Shown here: piece after piece, positions 13,461 through 27,131 of the stretch | How positions within the stretch are numbered: position 1 is the first letter of the stretch | Layout: each line of letters opens with the position of its first letter | DNA from: a virus | Length of the DNA: 34,185 nucleotides | IMG/VR virus record: IMGVR_UViG_3300030098_003533 | Span: 1 to 34,185 of that record | Strand: one strand, 5' to 3' | Notes under the pieces: generated by a model | Database searches by the model: none | What the model saw: the letters and a program-made list of their open reading frames with translations, nothing else | What the model was told of the DNA's origin: nothing | Made by a program: the position numbers and the translations under genes

Positions 13461-13505
13461 TATCGTCGACAAATGGGTTTATAGTATCCTATATAAAGAA
13501 ACAAG
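13461..13505. promoter_or_regulatory. Composite element with TATA boxes
   Basis: TATCGTCG (13461-13468) and ATGGGTTTATAGTA (13473-13486) are followed by CTATATAAAG. Read leftward, TTTCTTTATATAGG then CTATAAACCC has the same TATA/CTATAA/CCC order as the other promoters. The 14-base block recurs inverted at 10584-10597. Confidence 0.55.
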
Positions 13506-22165: not shown

Positions 22166-22397
22166 GCAATGTAAGAAATGTTTAGCAGGAGCAATGAGAG
22201 TTCACATTCTTAGCAGTGGTTTTTGCCAAGAGTGTCAGTCAGAATTAGAGTGGAAGAATGGTGATAGGGAACATCGCAGACAGATGGCAGTTAAGTCACG
22301 GGTAGATTATTACAAAAAGGCTGAGAAGTTTATTGAAAAGAAGTGGAAAAAGAAATACGGTGATGACAGCATCGACCAAGTATTAGGTAATAGATGA
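22158..22397 (+). CDS. Small zinc-ribbon protein in the head operon
   Basis: 79 residues from ATG 22158, preceded by AAGGAG. CKKC and CQEC knuckles lie near the N-terminus; a basic helical tail follows (REHRRQMAVKSRVDYYKKAEKFIEKKWKKKYG). DNA- or RNA-binding is plausible. It overlaps the next gene by four bases. Confidence 0.6.
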   Translation: MSKQCKKCLAGAMRVHILSSGFCQECQSELEWKNGDREHRRQMAVKSRVDYYKKAEKFIEKKWKKKYGDDSIDQVLGNR

Positions 22398-22948
22398 GTG
22401 CTTCTTTATCTGTAAATGTTAAAATAAGTGACAATGCACGTCATATCTTACAAGAGATTGGCGTTAACTTAGAAAAAGCATTGGATATTGCAATGACTGA
22501 TACAGCAGATAAGATGGCTAACGATGCTAATTCTAATTTAGCTGAGAGCATTGGAGTTAACAGTACATTGTTTGGAAGTGTTATGGTGAAAGATAAACCA
22601 TTTAGAAAAGAGATTTCAACTAATGTAGATTACGCAGGGCATGTAGAATTTGGGACTGGGCCTTCAAAAAGAAATCAGAAAGGACAAAAAACAGGAGCAA
22701 AGAAATATTGGCCACCATCATTAAAGCATCAATCTAAACATTCTAAGAAAGCAAAACAATTAGATAAATGGAGAACAAAAAAAAGTAAGTTTAAATCATA
22801 TGATGATTTACGTTTTGCAATATACAAAAAAGGGACTCGGCCACAACGATTCATGGCCAAGTCGTTACAGAAAAACAGAACTACCTTTGTCCGAAAGATA
22901 GGCGAGGAATTGTCTCGCCAATCTAACGGTAAGATAGTCAAGCGTTAG
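22394..22948 (+). CDS. HK97 gp10-like neck/tail completion protein
   Basis: 184 residues. ALDIAMTDTADKMANDANSN, then a strand with NVDYAGHVEFGTGPS, and a late RPQRFMAKSLQKN follow the gp10-like head-tail joining pattern (Y..yvEfGT...P.pFm.pa). An unusually basic insert (about 93-130) rich in Lys lies between them. The protein likely links head and tail. It ends three bases before a converging gene. Confidence 0.7.
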   Translation: MSASLSVNVKISDNARHILQEIGVNLEKALDIAMTDTADKMANDANSNLAESIGVNSTLFGSVMVKDKPFRKEISTNVDYAGHVEFGTGPSKRNQKGQKTGAKKYWPPSLKHQSKHSKKAKQLDKWRTKKSKFKSYDDLRFAIYKKGTRPQRFMAKSLQKNRTTFVRKIGEELSRQSNGKIVKR

Positions 22949-22962
22949 CGATTAGTAATCGC
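22948..22962. terminator. Palindrome between converging gene ends
   Basis: GCGATTAGTAATCGC is a near-perfect inverted repeat of 7+1+7 bases lying over the two converging stop codons. It may help end both transcripts. No T-run follows, so the call is weak. Confidence 0.35.
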
Positions 22963-23104
22963 CATAGACTTGACGAATGCCTTCGTTCGCTTTCATGCGG
23001 TCATGCACACACCACATACAATCGCACAATTCGCCACGAGCTGCTTTAGCATCGCACCAGCGTTGCCCTCTTGCAGACTTACGAATTTTAATAATCCGAC
23101 CCAT
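22952..23104 (-). CDS. Small Cys-rich protein
   Basis: 50 residues. The Cys cluster WCDAK...LCDCMWCVHD could bind a metal. It is basic at the N-terminus. The start overlaps the peptidase stop (TAATG), so it is translated with it. Third gene of the leftward island. Function unknown. Confidence 0.55.
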   Translation of the reverse strand: MGRIIKIRKSARGQRWCDAKAARGELCDCMWCVHDRMKANEGIRQVYGDY

Positions 23105-23652
23105 TAGTTTTCACCTCCTTTGTTTTTGTTACGGCTTATTTTTTCTATTACAAACAGTTCTTGCATCTTTGCTCTTTTCATCCAGCTAATCTTTGTAATA
23201 GGGCATCCTTTTTCTGGTGTGGATGTATCCCATACTTTGTTTCCTTTAACAACCATGTAATGATTGCCTGCAACAACTAGGTACCATGTCTTGCCTCGCT
23301 TACCATGAGTTGCTCTAGTCCATTGTCTAAAGGTTTGATTAGCTCCATGATTATCTGAACGAAACATTTTGTATCCATATCGTTTCAATGCTCGACGCAT
23401 TTGACCATTAGTCATTCCTTTAATTTGTGTTTCTTCCTTTGCAGGGATAAACTTCTTTCTTTCACCAGTCCACCAATCTAGTTGCCATCGACCTCTGTAC
23501 TTTACATTCTTGTTTACGTCTTTTAGTAAGTCCTTTTCTACAATGTCATATCGCTTACCAGTAAGAACTGTTAATGATACTGGTCCACAATATGAGTTGC
23601 CAGTCGCACGCTTACTAATCTGTCCTTTCTTATTGCGAATCACTTTAACCAC
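23104..23652 (-). CDS. Papain-like cysteine peptidase
   Basis: 182 residues, very basic. Cys22 in GNSYCGPVSLTVLTG and His131 with Asp142 in GNHYMVVKGNKVWDTST form a plausible Cys-His-Asp set of the C39/NlpC type. Known relatives process peptides, cut cell-wall peptides or strip ubiquitin-like tags. In an archaeal virus it could open host surface polymer at lysis or entry, but this is inference. It is read against the surrounding head genes. Confidence 0.6.
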   Translation of the reverse strand: MVKVIRNKKGQISKRATGNSYCGPVSLTVLTGKRYDIVEKDLLKDVNKNVKYRGRWQLDWWTGERKKFIPAKEETQIKGMTNGQMRRALKRYGYKMFRSDNHGANQTFRQWTRATHGKRGKTWYLVVAGNHYMVVKGNKVWDTSTPEKGCPITKISWMKRAKMQELFVIEKISRNKNKGGEN

Positions 23653-23939
23653 TTCTCCACTGAGACTAGTTTTTTCTTACCAACAAGCACTTGATAGATA
23701 GTATCAGTTCTTCGACATGGGCCAGTCCAACGAGTTTGTTGAACCATAAATCCATTCTTTTCAACCATCTTACCAGTGTATTCTCTGGTTGCTATTCGTG
23801 CATACCTTAATTGACCCTTTTTTGGGCCTCGTGTATACATTACTACTGACTTGACTTTTCCAAATTGCCAAGCGTATTTAGGCTTGCGATAGTAGACCAA
23901 TCGGCCTACTAATTCTGTGTGTGTATGACTCTTTGCCAT
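23640..23939 (-). CDS. Basic beta-rich protein
   Basis: 99 residues. LVGRLVYYRKPKYAWQFGKVKSVVMYTRGPKKGQLRYARI looks like an SH3- or KOW-type barrel. The protein is strongly basic and may bind nucleic acid. It leads the leftward island, with a TATA box about 24 bases before the ATG, and overlaps the peptidase gene by 13 bases. Confidence 0.6.
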   Translation of the reverse strand: MAKSHTHTELVGRLVYYRKPKYAWQFGKVKSVVMYTRGPKKGQLRYARIATREYTGKMVEKNGFMVQQTRWTGPCRRTDTIYQVLVGKKKLVSVEKWLK

Positions 23940-23954
23940 ATACTCCTAAAGGCG

Positions 23955-23970
23955 GGTGCATATAAACCTT
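23955..23970 (-). promoter_or_regulatory. Leftward promoter of the peptidase island
   Basis: Read leftward, GGTTTATATGCA is centred near 23963, 24 bases before the ATG at 23939. The spacing fits a leaderless start, although TAGGAG also lies just before the ATG. Confidence 0.55.
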
Positions 23971-23981
23971 TACGGTCTAAA

Positions 23982-24031
23982 ATATACGGAGTTTTGATTT
24001 CCTTTATATATAACATGCTATAATTTGGGCC
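23982..24031 (+). promoter_or_regulatory. Promoter of the protease gene, conserved late type
   Basis: ATATACGGAGT (23982-23992), TTTATATA (24003-24010), CTATAA (24018-24023) and GGG (24027-24029) match the promoter at 25453-25506 in order; the distance from ATATACGGAGT to TATA is identical (10 bases). The TATA centre is 25 bases before the GTG start, so the message is probably leaderless. Confidence 0.7.
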
Positions 24032-25453
24032 GTGGCAGACGAAAGTAACACTGGTTGGAAAGTCTACCGACCAGAGTGGTATAATGACAGAGTAATGGAG
24101 ACTTATATTTCCGCTCCAGTCGTCGACAAACAGAACGATATGATACCTACTGAGACTATCAAAGAGGCCATGGATTTTTACATGCGTTACGGCGTATATT
24201 CATATCGTCACGAAGAAATGCCGATTGGTTTGCCATTAGCTTACAAAATTAAAAACGGCAAGGTTAAGATTAGAGTAGGAATCCACAATAAGATTGCAAT
24301 GCACGACAAAGTGTGGAAAGAGATAGGAGATTACGGACCATCGGGTGCAAGTAGTATTCGAGGCGAAGCCACAGACCAAGAGAAAGTATGTTTATCAGAA
24401 AACGACTGCCACAATCGTATCAACGAGCTTTCTCTTTGGAGCATATCTTGGGTTGGCGATAATCCAGCTAACCCAGAGGCTAAAGTCACAGATGTTGCAA
24501 TGGCTAAATCTAAAAGTGTTCAAGTCACTTTAGATGAAGTTGAGTCTATGGTTGAAAAGATAATAGAGCGAAAAAACGGGCAATATTGTTTATACGCTAA
24601 AAAGAACCGAAAGCTTCTGGGCTGCCATGATACCAAGGCAGGAGCTATAAGGCAGGAAAGGGCCATACAAGCCAGAAGATTCGGCAAATCAGATACGCTA
24701 AATGAAATACTTACAAAGATAGAAAAGTATAAAATTCCAAAAGGAGTCAAAAACGAAGCAATTACGGGTAGAGAACTTCGTAAGAAACACGGATATGGTG
24801 GAGGTAAAGTTACTAAAGCCATTAACAATCATTTAATTAATAAAGAATATGTGACTTACAAAATGGCAATGGCAATTCACAAGTATTATAGAAGACATGA
24901 GAAAGTAGACCCACAGGGTAAGAACTTTAATAATAAAAAAAGACCTAGTAAGGGTTTGATAATGTGGAAAATGATGGGCGGTGATGCAGGTCACAGTTGG
25001 AGTAAGAGTTTAGAAACTAAAGTAAAGTCATTAGATAAGGCAGAATGTTCTTGTACTATAAAGACAGAACGCTTACAGAAGACAAATAATTACTTAGATG
25101 ACATAATGCGCATGATAAAGTTTGGAACATTTATAGAAAAGAAACCCGAAAATGATGATGATGACAAAAAAAAACCTGAAAGGGGCGGTGGTGCAGGGCC
25201 TTCGGGGACTTGGATGGAAAATTGTAAAATAAATGCACGCAAAATATCAAATGATTATACTGAATTTACAGGAAACCGTCGTAGAATTAGAAACCATGCA
25301 GCTTGGTGTGCTGAGTTATGGCACAATCCAGGAAAGTATAGTCAAACATATCATAAACCAGATGGAAGTAAGGGAAGAACTGATGGTTACAAATTACGGC
25401 GTAAAATAGGGCTGTCTAATTTCAAACTAGATAATCCAAAGCCTTCTAAATAA
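24032..25453 (+). CDS. Prohead protease fused to further domains
   Basis: 473 residues from GTG 24032, supported by the leaderless spacing. Residues 20-160 form a viral prohead protease-like domain: YISAPVVDKQNDMIPTETIKEAM, His60 in SYRHEEMPIG, a Ser at about 104-108 in PSGASSIRGEA, and the end NELSLWSISWVGDNPANPEA. Residues about 183-218 match a small QYCLYAKKNRKLLGCHDT...ERAIQ module seen in phage head proteins. Residues about 235-325 hold IPKGVKNEAITG...WKMMGGDAGHSW, another phage module. A Lys-rich linker and a fourth domain end it. The protein matures the capsid by trimming scaffold and capsid. Confidence 0.7.
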   Translation: MADESNTGWKVYRPEWYNDRVMETYISAPVVDKQNDMIPTETIKEAMDFYMRYGVYSYRHEEMPIGLPLAYKIKNGKVKIRVGIHNKIAMHDKVWKEIGDYGPSGASSIRGEATDQEKVCLSENDCHNRINELSLWSISWVGDNPANPEAKVTDVAMAKSKSVQVTLDEVESMVEKIIERKNGQYCLYAKKNRKLLGCHDTKAGAIRQERAIQARRFGKSDTLNEILTKIEKYKIPKGVKNEAITGRELRKKHGYGGGKVTKAINNHLINKEYVTYKMAMAIHKYYRRHEKVDPQGKNFNNKKRPSKGLIMWKMMGGDAGHSWSKSLETKVKSLDKAECSCTIKTERLQKTNNYLDDIMRMIKFGTFIEKKPENDDDDKKKPERGGGAGPSGTWMENCKINARKISNDYTEFTGNRRRIRNHAAWCAELWHNPGKYSQTYHKPDGSKGRTDGYKLRRKIGLSNFKLDNPKPSK

Positions 25454-25506: not shown

Positions 25507-25998
25507 ATGAGCGAATGTACTTGCGGAGGTTCACACGAAGCCCCTACCGAGGAAATCGTAGAGGCCGAAAAAAGTGAAGCTCTTGATGAACCAGTCGAAG
25601 AAACCAGTCTTGACAAGCATGAAGAATTGTATAAAGACATGGAGCAAACCTTAGCTAAACTCAAAGAAGTCATGGCATACCTAGAAGAGATGGCAGGCGA
25701 AGAGAAAGCAGAAGAGGAAGAAGAAGAAGCCGAACCTGAAGAAGAAGCTGAAGAAGAAGAAAAAGCTGAAGAAGAGGAAGAGGCAGAAGAGGAGGAAGAG
25801 GAAACTGTTGCAGAGAAAGCAGATGCTCTTCACAAATCACTTACAACATTAAAGAAATATGGAATAAACATATATGCAGGTAAGAAGGCAACACCTTCAC
25901 CAGCAAAAACTGACAGTCCTAAAGTAGAAACAATAGATTTCAACAATGTAGAAAAATCATTTGAAGAACTTGAAGCACTTTATGACGGAGGAATGTAA
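25507..25998 (+). CDS. Acidic scaffold-like protein
   Basis: 163 residues. CTCGGSH near the N-terminus, a helix with DKHEELYKDMEQTLAKLKEVMAYLEEM, then a Glu-rich repeat (about 66-102) and a C-terminal part with SFEELEALYDGGM. Glu-rich coiled proteins placed between protease and capsid genes usually act as scaffold. The Cys-x-Cys plus His start is odd and could bind a metal. No enzymatic motif. The call is by position and composition. Confidence 0.6.
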   Translation: MSECTCGGSHEAPTEEIVEAEKSEALDEPVEETSLDKHEELYKDMEQTLAKLKEVMAYLEEMAGEEKAEEEEEEAEPEEEAEEEEKAEEEEEAEEEEEETVAEKADALHKSLTTLKKYGINIYAGKKATPSPAKTDSPKVETIDFNNVEKSFEELEALYDGGM

Positions 25999-26000
25999 AC

Positions 26001-27131
26001 ATGGGAATGACAATGGAAGAATATGTAAACGCATACTACGGCGGCGAACTCGGTATCTCTAAGAGATATGGAATTAGCAAAGCTGACGACTTGACTTATA
26101 CAAGCGACCCATCCGCAGCGTTCAATACGACGTTTGGTGCAAAAGTGTTTGGTCAATTAAATTCAAAATCAGAAGTATTTAAGCTCTTGAAGAAAGAGCC
26201 ATGGACACAATCTGGATGGAGAGTAATGACTGGACGTCACGAAACAACTGCTGGCGTTGCAGAAAATGCCTCTGAAGCTGGTGGGGCATTACCAGACACA
26301 GACAAACCAGATATTGTAAATGTTACAGCAACTTTGAAACAAATTGTAACTCCATGGGAAATTACAACCAAAGCAGCAATGCTTTCTGAAGCTGATGATG
26401 GTCTAGGTAACTTGGCTGCATTTATGAGAAAAGAAAACTCAGAAGCACACGTTTACTACATTGACCAAATGCTTTGTGCAGATACAGATACTGTAGCAGG
26501 AAACAACTTTGAATCTTTAGACCGTGTAACTATGTCTGATGCAGCAGCACACGCACTATGTAATGACAGGGCAGACGCTGACATTTACGACTTGGATAAA
26601 TCAGCTCTAACTGCATGGGCAGATGCACACACAGGTCACAACAGCGATACACCAACAGCATTAACACTAACAATGTTGGACAATGCAATTCAATCTGCAT
26701 TAGAAAATGGTGTAAACTACAACAGTTTGATTCTATTAACTGGATATGATACATACCAAGATTTGAAAGCATTAATGAGAGCTACATCCAATGCAGCTTT
26801 CAGATATGATTTGAAACAAGGTGGTGCAGGTAGCTTAAACGGAGTTACTGGTGAAGCAGGACTTGCTTTTGATTCACGTGTAGGTTCATACGATGGAATA
26901 CCAATATTCCTATCACAGCACGTAGCATCCGAAACAGATGCAACTGCAAGAATCTTACTATTAGATATGGATAACTTAGCAATGAGAATTGCAGCTCCAA
27001 CAACTTATGTAGACAGCACAAATGTAGCAGTCACACAAAAGATGTCTCACGAGTTTGCATTGATTACTGCTGGTGAATTAATCTGTTACAAGTTTAACAC
27101 CCAAGGAAGTATTAGAGATTTGGACCAATAG
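26001..27131 (+). CDS. Major capsid protein (HK97 fold)
   Basis: 376 residues. The start VNAYYGGELGISKRYG is followed by a likely delta region, an E-loop-like segment (TAGVAENASEAGGALPDTDKPDIVNVTATLKQIVTPWEIT), a helix, and a late part with DGIPIFLSQHV...LLLDMDNLAMRIAAPT and KMSHEFALITAGELICY, the end pattern of HK97-type capsid proteins. It follows the scaffold gene by two bases, with GGAGG before the ATG. It is the most likely product of the strong promoter at 25453. Confidence 0.8.
   Translation: MGMTMEEYVNAYYGGELGISKRYGISKADDLTYTSDPSAAFNTTFGAKVFGQLNSKSEVFKLLKKEPWTQSGWRVMTGRHETTAGVAENASEAGGALPDTDKPDIVNVTATLKQIVTPWEITTKAAMLSEADDGLGNLAAFMRKENSEAHVYYIDQMLCADTDTVAGNNFESLDRVTMSDAAAHALCNDRADADIYDLDKSALTAWADAHTGHNSDTPTALTLTMLDNAIQSALENGVNYNSLILLTGYDTYQDLKALMRATSNAAFRYDLKQGGAGSLNGVTGEAGLAFDSRVGSYDGIPIFLSQHVASETDATARILLLDMDNLAMRIAAPTTYVDSTNVAVTQKMSHEFALITAGELICYKFNTQGSIRDLDQ

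Follow-up and report, generated by a model that had tools for sequence, protein, structure and literature searches.

A moron-like gene cassette with a predicted papain-fold cysteine peptidase among the head genes of a likely archaeal virus

The window, a stretch of DNA of 34,185 bases that makes up a single virus record (GC 37.5%), carries among its head genes a cassette of three tightly coupled minus-strand genes (22952-23939), whose conserved core is predicted to encode a papain-fold cysteine peptidase. The reading that we prefer, and to which we give roughly an even chance, is that of a moron-like cassette providing a soluble cytoplasmic cysteine peptidase that acts on an intracellular, probably host or defence, target. 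No paper on this cassette was found among open-access articles.

Gene structure and surroundings

The genes of the head region run in the order terminase, portal, Mu-F-like head protein, small Cys-rich protein, neck/tail-completion protein, cassette, head-protease-like protein, scaffold-like protein and major capsid protein, the protease and scaffold names being based on weak matches, position and reading. The cassette is the sole leftward part of the terminase-to-capsid run. It and its two boundary genes are as follows.

22394-22948, plus strand: neck/tail-completion protein (phrog_5, HK97-gp10-like); left boundary, convergent with the cassette
22952-23104, minus strand: Cys-rich 50-aa peptide, pI 9.4; variable gene 3 of the cassette
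23104-23652, minus strand: predicted papain-fold cysteine peptidase, 182 aa (Cys22, His131, Asp142), GTG start, pI 10.4; conserved core of the cassette
23640-23939, minus strand: small basic all-beta ("SH3-like") protein, 99 aa, pI 10.5; gene 1 of the cassette
24032-25453, plus strand: head-protease-like protein (weak phrog_80 match); right boundary, divergent from the cassette

The leftward, overlapping trio set against the head genes that the earlier note had described is borne out. The three minus-strand reading frames are present, with an overlap of 13 nt between the SH3-like and peptidase genes and of 1 nt between the peptidase and Cys-rich genes, and homologues with intact frames were found in other contigs. 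All three products are basic. Among close relatives, the peptidase has a median pairwise dN/dS of 0.17 and the SH3-like gene one of ~0.30; conservation, together with these ratios, rules out chance open reading frames. For the 50-aa Cys-rich gene, the few pairs available suggest weak purifying selection at most.

The label "SH3-like" rests on an AlphaFold model that is predicted, fairly confidently, to be all-beta (pLDDT 84, pTM 0.70). The gene occurs in relatives as two main alleles, of 99 and 89 aa, and a 125-aa allele at L006:1761-2135 has a Cys-rich loop inserted (CHCRPTKSKPDKCKDLTKCPC). A match of the SH3-like protein to Gabija anti-defence 1 (Pfam E 0.07) is weak and was judged to be chance.

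Distribution among relatives

Sampling based on the portal gave 80 contigs. The peptidase and SH3-like genes lie opposite to the head-gene strand in every one of the 15 contigs, window included, that cover the interval and have a terminase of the window's type (~92-100% identical where present). A further 25 contigs have no cassette: their portals are 83-89% identical and their terminases ~68-72% identical where present, their N-terminal protease-like parts are ~77-98% identical, and the gap between the neck and protease-like genes measures 88-191 bp. No copy of the cassette was found elsewhere in 14 whole records of cassette-free viruses, all of them fragments. In a more distant group of 15 contigs (portal ~53-60%), the peptidase occupies the same interval on the head-gene strand, among small Cys-rich open reading frames. 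Most of these same-strand contigs that were examined lack a recognisable SH3-like gene, and in two (L112 and L115) such a gene, 67% identical, lies just upstream of the peptidase, likewise on the head-gene strand. On the portal tree the carriers of the cassette do not form one clean clade, and the deeper joins are unsure.

This pattern of presence, absence and strand identifies the site as an accessory hotspot at which orientation varies between groups. It also meets the earlier note's proposal that presence and absence be checked in relatives, and its view of the genes as an accessory system stands, given the patchy distribution and the absence from 25 close relatives; the same absence rules out a universal structural trio. 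The Cys-rich gene is not a fixed member of the trio, its slot being filled across relatives by differing small Cys-rich frames or left empty.

It is against this distribution that a role in the virion has to be weighed. The peptidase might be a second, lineage-specific protease that is made late and either trims a protein of the neck, head or scaffold or is packaged and injected. This is the main rival because two virus groups have the gene at the same place, between the neck gene and the head-protease-like gene, and one of them has it tightly packed on the strand of the head genes, an arrangement that also fits a late or virion-associated role. Moreover, the gene was never seen lost in the window's lineage, a retention that is stricter than is usual for a disposable gene and tells to that extent against a dispensable cassette. 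We nevertheless consider a virion peptidase rather unlikely. The 25 relatives without it, with portals and protease-like genes so similar to those of the window, keep a separate head-protease-like gene, as does the window itself, which is not what would be seen of an essential head maturation protease; transcription divergent from that of the head genes is predicted in the window's lineage; and the bacterial-phage homologues examined do not lie in head modules.

Exchange of the cassette and of other modules

Comparison of four-fold degenerate sites separates cassette genes from the other genes measured. Between the window and contig L002, these sites are 99% identical in the peptidase gene (the proteins are 98% identical) and 55-69% identical in the terminase, portal, Mu-F, neck, Cys-rich, protease-like and capsid genes; the SH3-like genes of the pair are differing alleles, at 43%. 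With contig L003, the values are 98% for the SH3-like gene and 91% for the peptidase, against 63-78% in the other genes measured outside the cassette. Codon constraint does not explain the signal, since the four-fold sites of the peptidase are not generally so conserved, identity being 69-71% for L006 and L008. The simplest reading of these alignments is that the cassette, or single genes of it, would have been transferred recently. A toxin-antitoxin or otherwise obligate pair was rejected because the peptidase and SH3-like genes are exchanged separately and most same-strand contigs examined lack a recognisable SH3-like gene.

Absence from relatives, a predicted promoter of its own and exchange independent of the backbone are all found here, as in a moron-like cassette. 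The likeness to morons extends to the opposite orientation, the patchy presence, the gene-by-gene character of the exchange and the variable small genes. Unlike usual morons, this cassette belongs to a relative of haloarchaeal viruses, has never been seen lost in its lineage and has an orientation that depends on the group.

Variation in this region is not confined to the cassette. The head-protease-like gene has a second variable slot around residue 333, where many relatives have several hundred extra bases between the conserved N-terminal 330 residues and the C-terminal part. In nine contigs (L077, L078, L081, L083, L087, L089, L091, L094 and L100), a piece ~52-61% identical to a portion of the head-protease-like protein lies between the terminase and portal genes, as if one domain of the protein were also encoded by a separate gene in that related virus group. 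The capsid protein (26001-27131) varies from ~48 to 89% among viruses with nearly identical terminases, and in contig L093, where the terminase is only 65% identical, the capsid protein is reported as 100% identical to that of the window; this mismatch between capsid and terminase identity points to extensive exchange of modules. Outside the head region, the 113-aa protein encoded at 33208-33549 matches the "Recombinase" domain associated with serine recombinases (Pfam E 5e-6) and is too short for a full recombinase.

Promoters in the divergent spacer

The cassette and the head-protease-like gene are separated by a divergent spacer of 92 nt (23940-24031) that contains two TATA-like boxes.

23959-23966, minus strand: TTTATATG, TATA-like box for the cassette, 27 nt ahead of the cassette's start codon
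24003-24010, plus strand: TTTATATA, TATA-like box divergent from the first, 29 nt ahead of the GTG of the head-protease-like gene

Both boxes are conserved, with small variations, across 12 aligned loci, and their distance from the start codons suggests that the transcripts may be leaderless. The motif TTTATATR is not enriched in the window by number (eight copies, 8.06 expected); six of the eight fall within the 7% of the window that is noncoding, where 0.9 would be expected. The other noncoding copies are at 13490 (minus strand), 13800 (plus), 19684 (plus) and 25474 (plus), the last of these 33 nt before the scaffold-like gene at 25507. A scan for sigma-70 promoters is uninformative for an archaeal virus.

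The earlier note's proposal of a TATA promoter belonging to the cassette therefore survives as a prediction for the window's lineage, where the box is conserved, and does not extend to the family at large. The same is true of independent regulation, which would apply to one lineage: in the distant group the peptidase gene is on the head-gene strand, with no obvious TATA box in the contigs read. The spacer was read by eye in four same-strand contigs, and these have an SD-like AAAGGATG before the protease-like gene and no obvious TATA box there.

Fold and active site of the peptidase

Sequence searches of Pfam, NCBIfam, PADLOC and the PDB gave no significant match to the peptidase, and its assignment is based on a predicted structure. 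The AlphaFold2 model, built from 16 sequences, has a pLDDT of 74 and a pTM of 0.68, and confidence in it is moderate since the five models range from 56 to 74. A Foldseek search of the PDB gave no match below E 1e-3. VIA-align, run over the PDB candidates of Foldseek, placed the C39-like domain 3b79 first (Z 9.0, 113 residues, rmsd 3.2 Å), followed by the C39 domains of PCAT1, ComA and HlyB and by staphopain, Josephin, pseudomurein endoisopeptidase and deubiquitinases; Foldseek itself gave its top ranks to enzymes of these kinds. YopQ is also in the VIA-align list (Z 7.9). A search of a library of viral models ranked A0A516LV78 best (E 3e-8), with uncharacterised phage proteins after it.

In the model, Cys22 precedes a helix (24-31), His131 opens a strand (131-136) and Asp142 follows another (139-141), a placement that gives the papain-like order. 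The predicted fold would thus belong to clan CA: the listed matches are mostly papain-fold enzymes, and a catalytic Cys at the N terminus of a helix is followed by His and then by a third polar residue. Across 34 relatives, with identity down to ~25%, Cys22 and His131 are invariant, as are Gly23, Pro24, Gly32, Gly79, Gly137 and Arg160. Position 142 is Asp in 29 of them and Cys in the other five (L019, L020, L102, L104 and L105), of which two come from Brevundimonas phages, one each from CRP-901 and XM05 and one from an unassigned contig; this suggests a Cys-His-Cys active site in those distant relatives. The earlier note had named a peptidase with Cys22, His131 and Asp142 and had called for a structure search; the residues are where it put them, and the search returned papain-like matches that agree with the predicted catalytic fold. 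Of the two outcomes that it had named as refuting, a missing catalytic fold and a trio present everywhere as structural genes, neither came about, the fold being one that the model predicts.

The match is general and not specific to one predicted peptidase family. The C39 domains (3b79, ComA, PCAT1 and the C39-like domain of HlyB) are alike in their small papain-like core and in the order Cys-His-Asp. They differ in that C39 is a bacteriocin-processing domain fused to an ABC transporter and cuts double-Gly leaders, whereas the window's peptidase is a stand-alone protein of 182 aa that is only 11-16% identical to them and in some relatives has Cys in place of the Asp; no match to Peptidase C39 (PF03412) was found in Pfam at E up to 1. 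Josephin-type deubiquitinases match the fold with Z 4.6-6.9, in the range of other papain-like enzymes, and have no Pfam match to the peptidase.

An enzyme of lysis or of the cell surface, an endolysin-like peptidase that cuts a component of the archaeal wall or S-layer, would accord with the resemblance of the fold to the pseudomurein endoisopeptidase PeiR (Z 6.2-6.4). These scores, however, lie within the general papain-like range and below those of C39, and the likeness to PeiR is one of general fold: the peptidase is a single 182-aa domain that matches no Pfam profile of the pseudomurein endoisopeptidases, nor any other wall-hydrolase profile. It is very hydrophilic and basic (GRAVY -0.95), and reading its sequence reveals neither a signal peptide nor a membrane segment nor a wall-binding repeat. 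Members of the family are also found in phages that infect Gram-negative bacteria, and the surfaces of those cells are entirely different. Lysis or breach of the cell surface, which the earlier note had raised, finds no positive support here and is very improbable.

It is also conceivable that the protein is not a protease at all. Papain-fold proteins carry out many chemistries, and the papain-like amidase Tae1 is reported to have Cys as its third catalytic residue (PMC10318531), as do five of the relatives by alignment; phytochelatin synthase, moreover, appears in both the Foldseek and the VIA-align lists. An amidase, a transglutaminase- or acyltransferase-like enzyme or a binding protein that retains the Cys and His would fit these observations. 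The top structural matches are peptidases, however, and we regard a non-proteolytic function as unlikely.

Virus affinity and homologues elsewhere

The closest annotated relatives of the window are the haloarchaeal tailed viruses HVTV-1, HCTV-1 and HCTV-5, with 29-32% identity in the major capsid protein and 21-23% in the portal, and a Methanofastidiosa virus also matches the capsid. An archaeal host is likely. Profile scans of genome contigs with the peptidase and portal found no link to a host, and searches for the peptidase were negative both in plasmids and, with the patterns applied, in 84,980 prokaryote genomes. It was not found by tblastn in HVTV-1, HCTV-1 or HCTV-5.

By the same method, seven giant phages of Brevundimonas proved to carry it (best E 2e-5), and L103, a relative from a metagenome, connects it to Roseobacter phage CRP-901 and Erythrobacter phage XM05. 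Hypothetical proteins of the Brevundimonas phages Bambus and Gurke, of CRP-901 and of XM05 have a CGP...H core in common with the peptidase; the Brevundimonas proteins are ~22-31% identical to it, and all four phages have profile E-values of 6e-14 or better. These homologues differ from it in being longer, with extra C-terminal parts, in having bacterial hosts and in having Cys at the position of Asp142. In Bambus and Gurke, the gene is near helicase and tRNA genes, and in CRP-901 it is near helicase and nuclease genes; in XM05 it has hypothetical genes as neighbours, and one short gene close by is labelled terminase. The distant homologues L103 (E 7e-8) and L119 (E 5e-4) match most of phrog_3754, a phage family with no assigned function, whose profile did not match the window protein itself. 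A protein with a C33-associated domain, gp34, has been described in pelagiphage HTVC027P (PMC12753301).

Proposed mode of action

What was computed comprises the gene structure, the predicted fold, the invariant Cys and His, the patchy distribution, the strand difference and the independent exchange. Beyond this, we infer proteolytic activity, its place, timing and target, and roles for the beta-protein and the Cys-rich peptide. The accessory cassette would occupy an insertion hotspot between the neck and head-protease-like genes, and in the window's lineage the peptidase would be expressed from the cassette's own promoter. The basic enzyme would then act in the cytoplasm after infection, with Cys22 as the nucleophile and His131 as the base, oriented by Asp142 (Cys in some relatives). 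It may cut or deconjugate a limited intracellular target, most probably a host or defence protein, and so aid the virus, while the small beta-protein, also basic, may serve to bind a partner or to position it.

Action on the host or its defences is preferred for three reasons: relatives whose portal and protease-like genes are very similar lack the peptidase, its exchange proceeds gene by gene, and unrelated phages, those examined, keep a homologue outside head modules. Defence counteraction, one of the functions suggested in the earlier note, is plausible; a known defence or anti-defence family was rejected, there being no PADLOC match at E up to 1. A bolder form of this proposal is that the peptidase family, common to archaeal and bacterial viruses, disarms a conserved intracellular defence or protein-tagging pathway, such as a ubiquitin-like modifier or a defence adaptor, and is carried in archaeal viruses on an exchangeable cassette that is either controlled by the head operon or inverted with a promoter of its own. 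We consider this decidedly unlikely.

Conclusions

Accessory genes within structural operons and papain-fold proteins of phages are kinds already known. What is new, as a variant, is their combination in a relative of the haloarchaeal viruses, together with an uncharacterised family found in viruses of both archaea and bacteria and with a strand that differs between groups. The accessory genes of uncultured archaeal tailed viruses are little known, and the insertion hotspot provides natural sets for comparison, in which the peptidase is present and inverted, present and co-oriented, or absent. It also connects this site with an uncharacterised papain-fold family that is found in bacterial phages as well. 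With a conserved active site and exchange at the level of the gene, the peptidase is a good candidate for a host-directed enzyme, and the sharing of the family means that its function would be testable in a culturable phage of Brevundimonas or Roseobacter.
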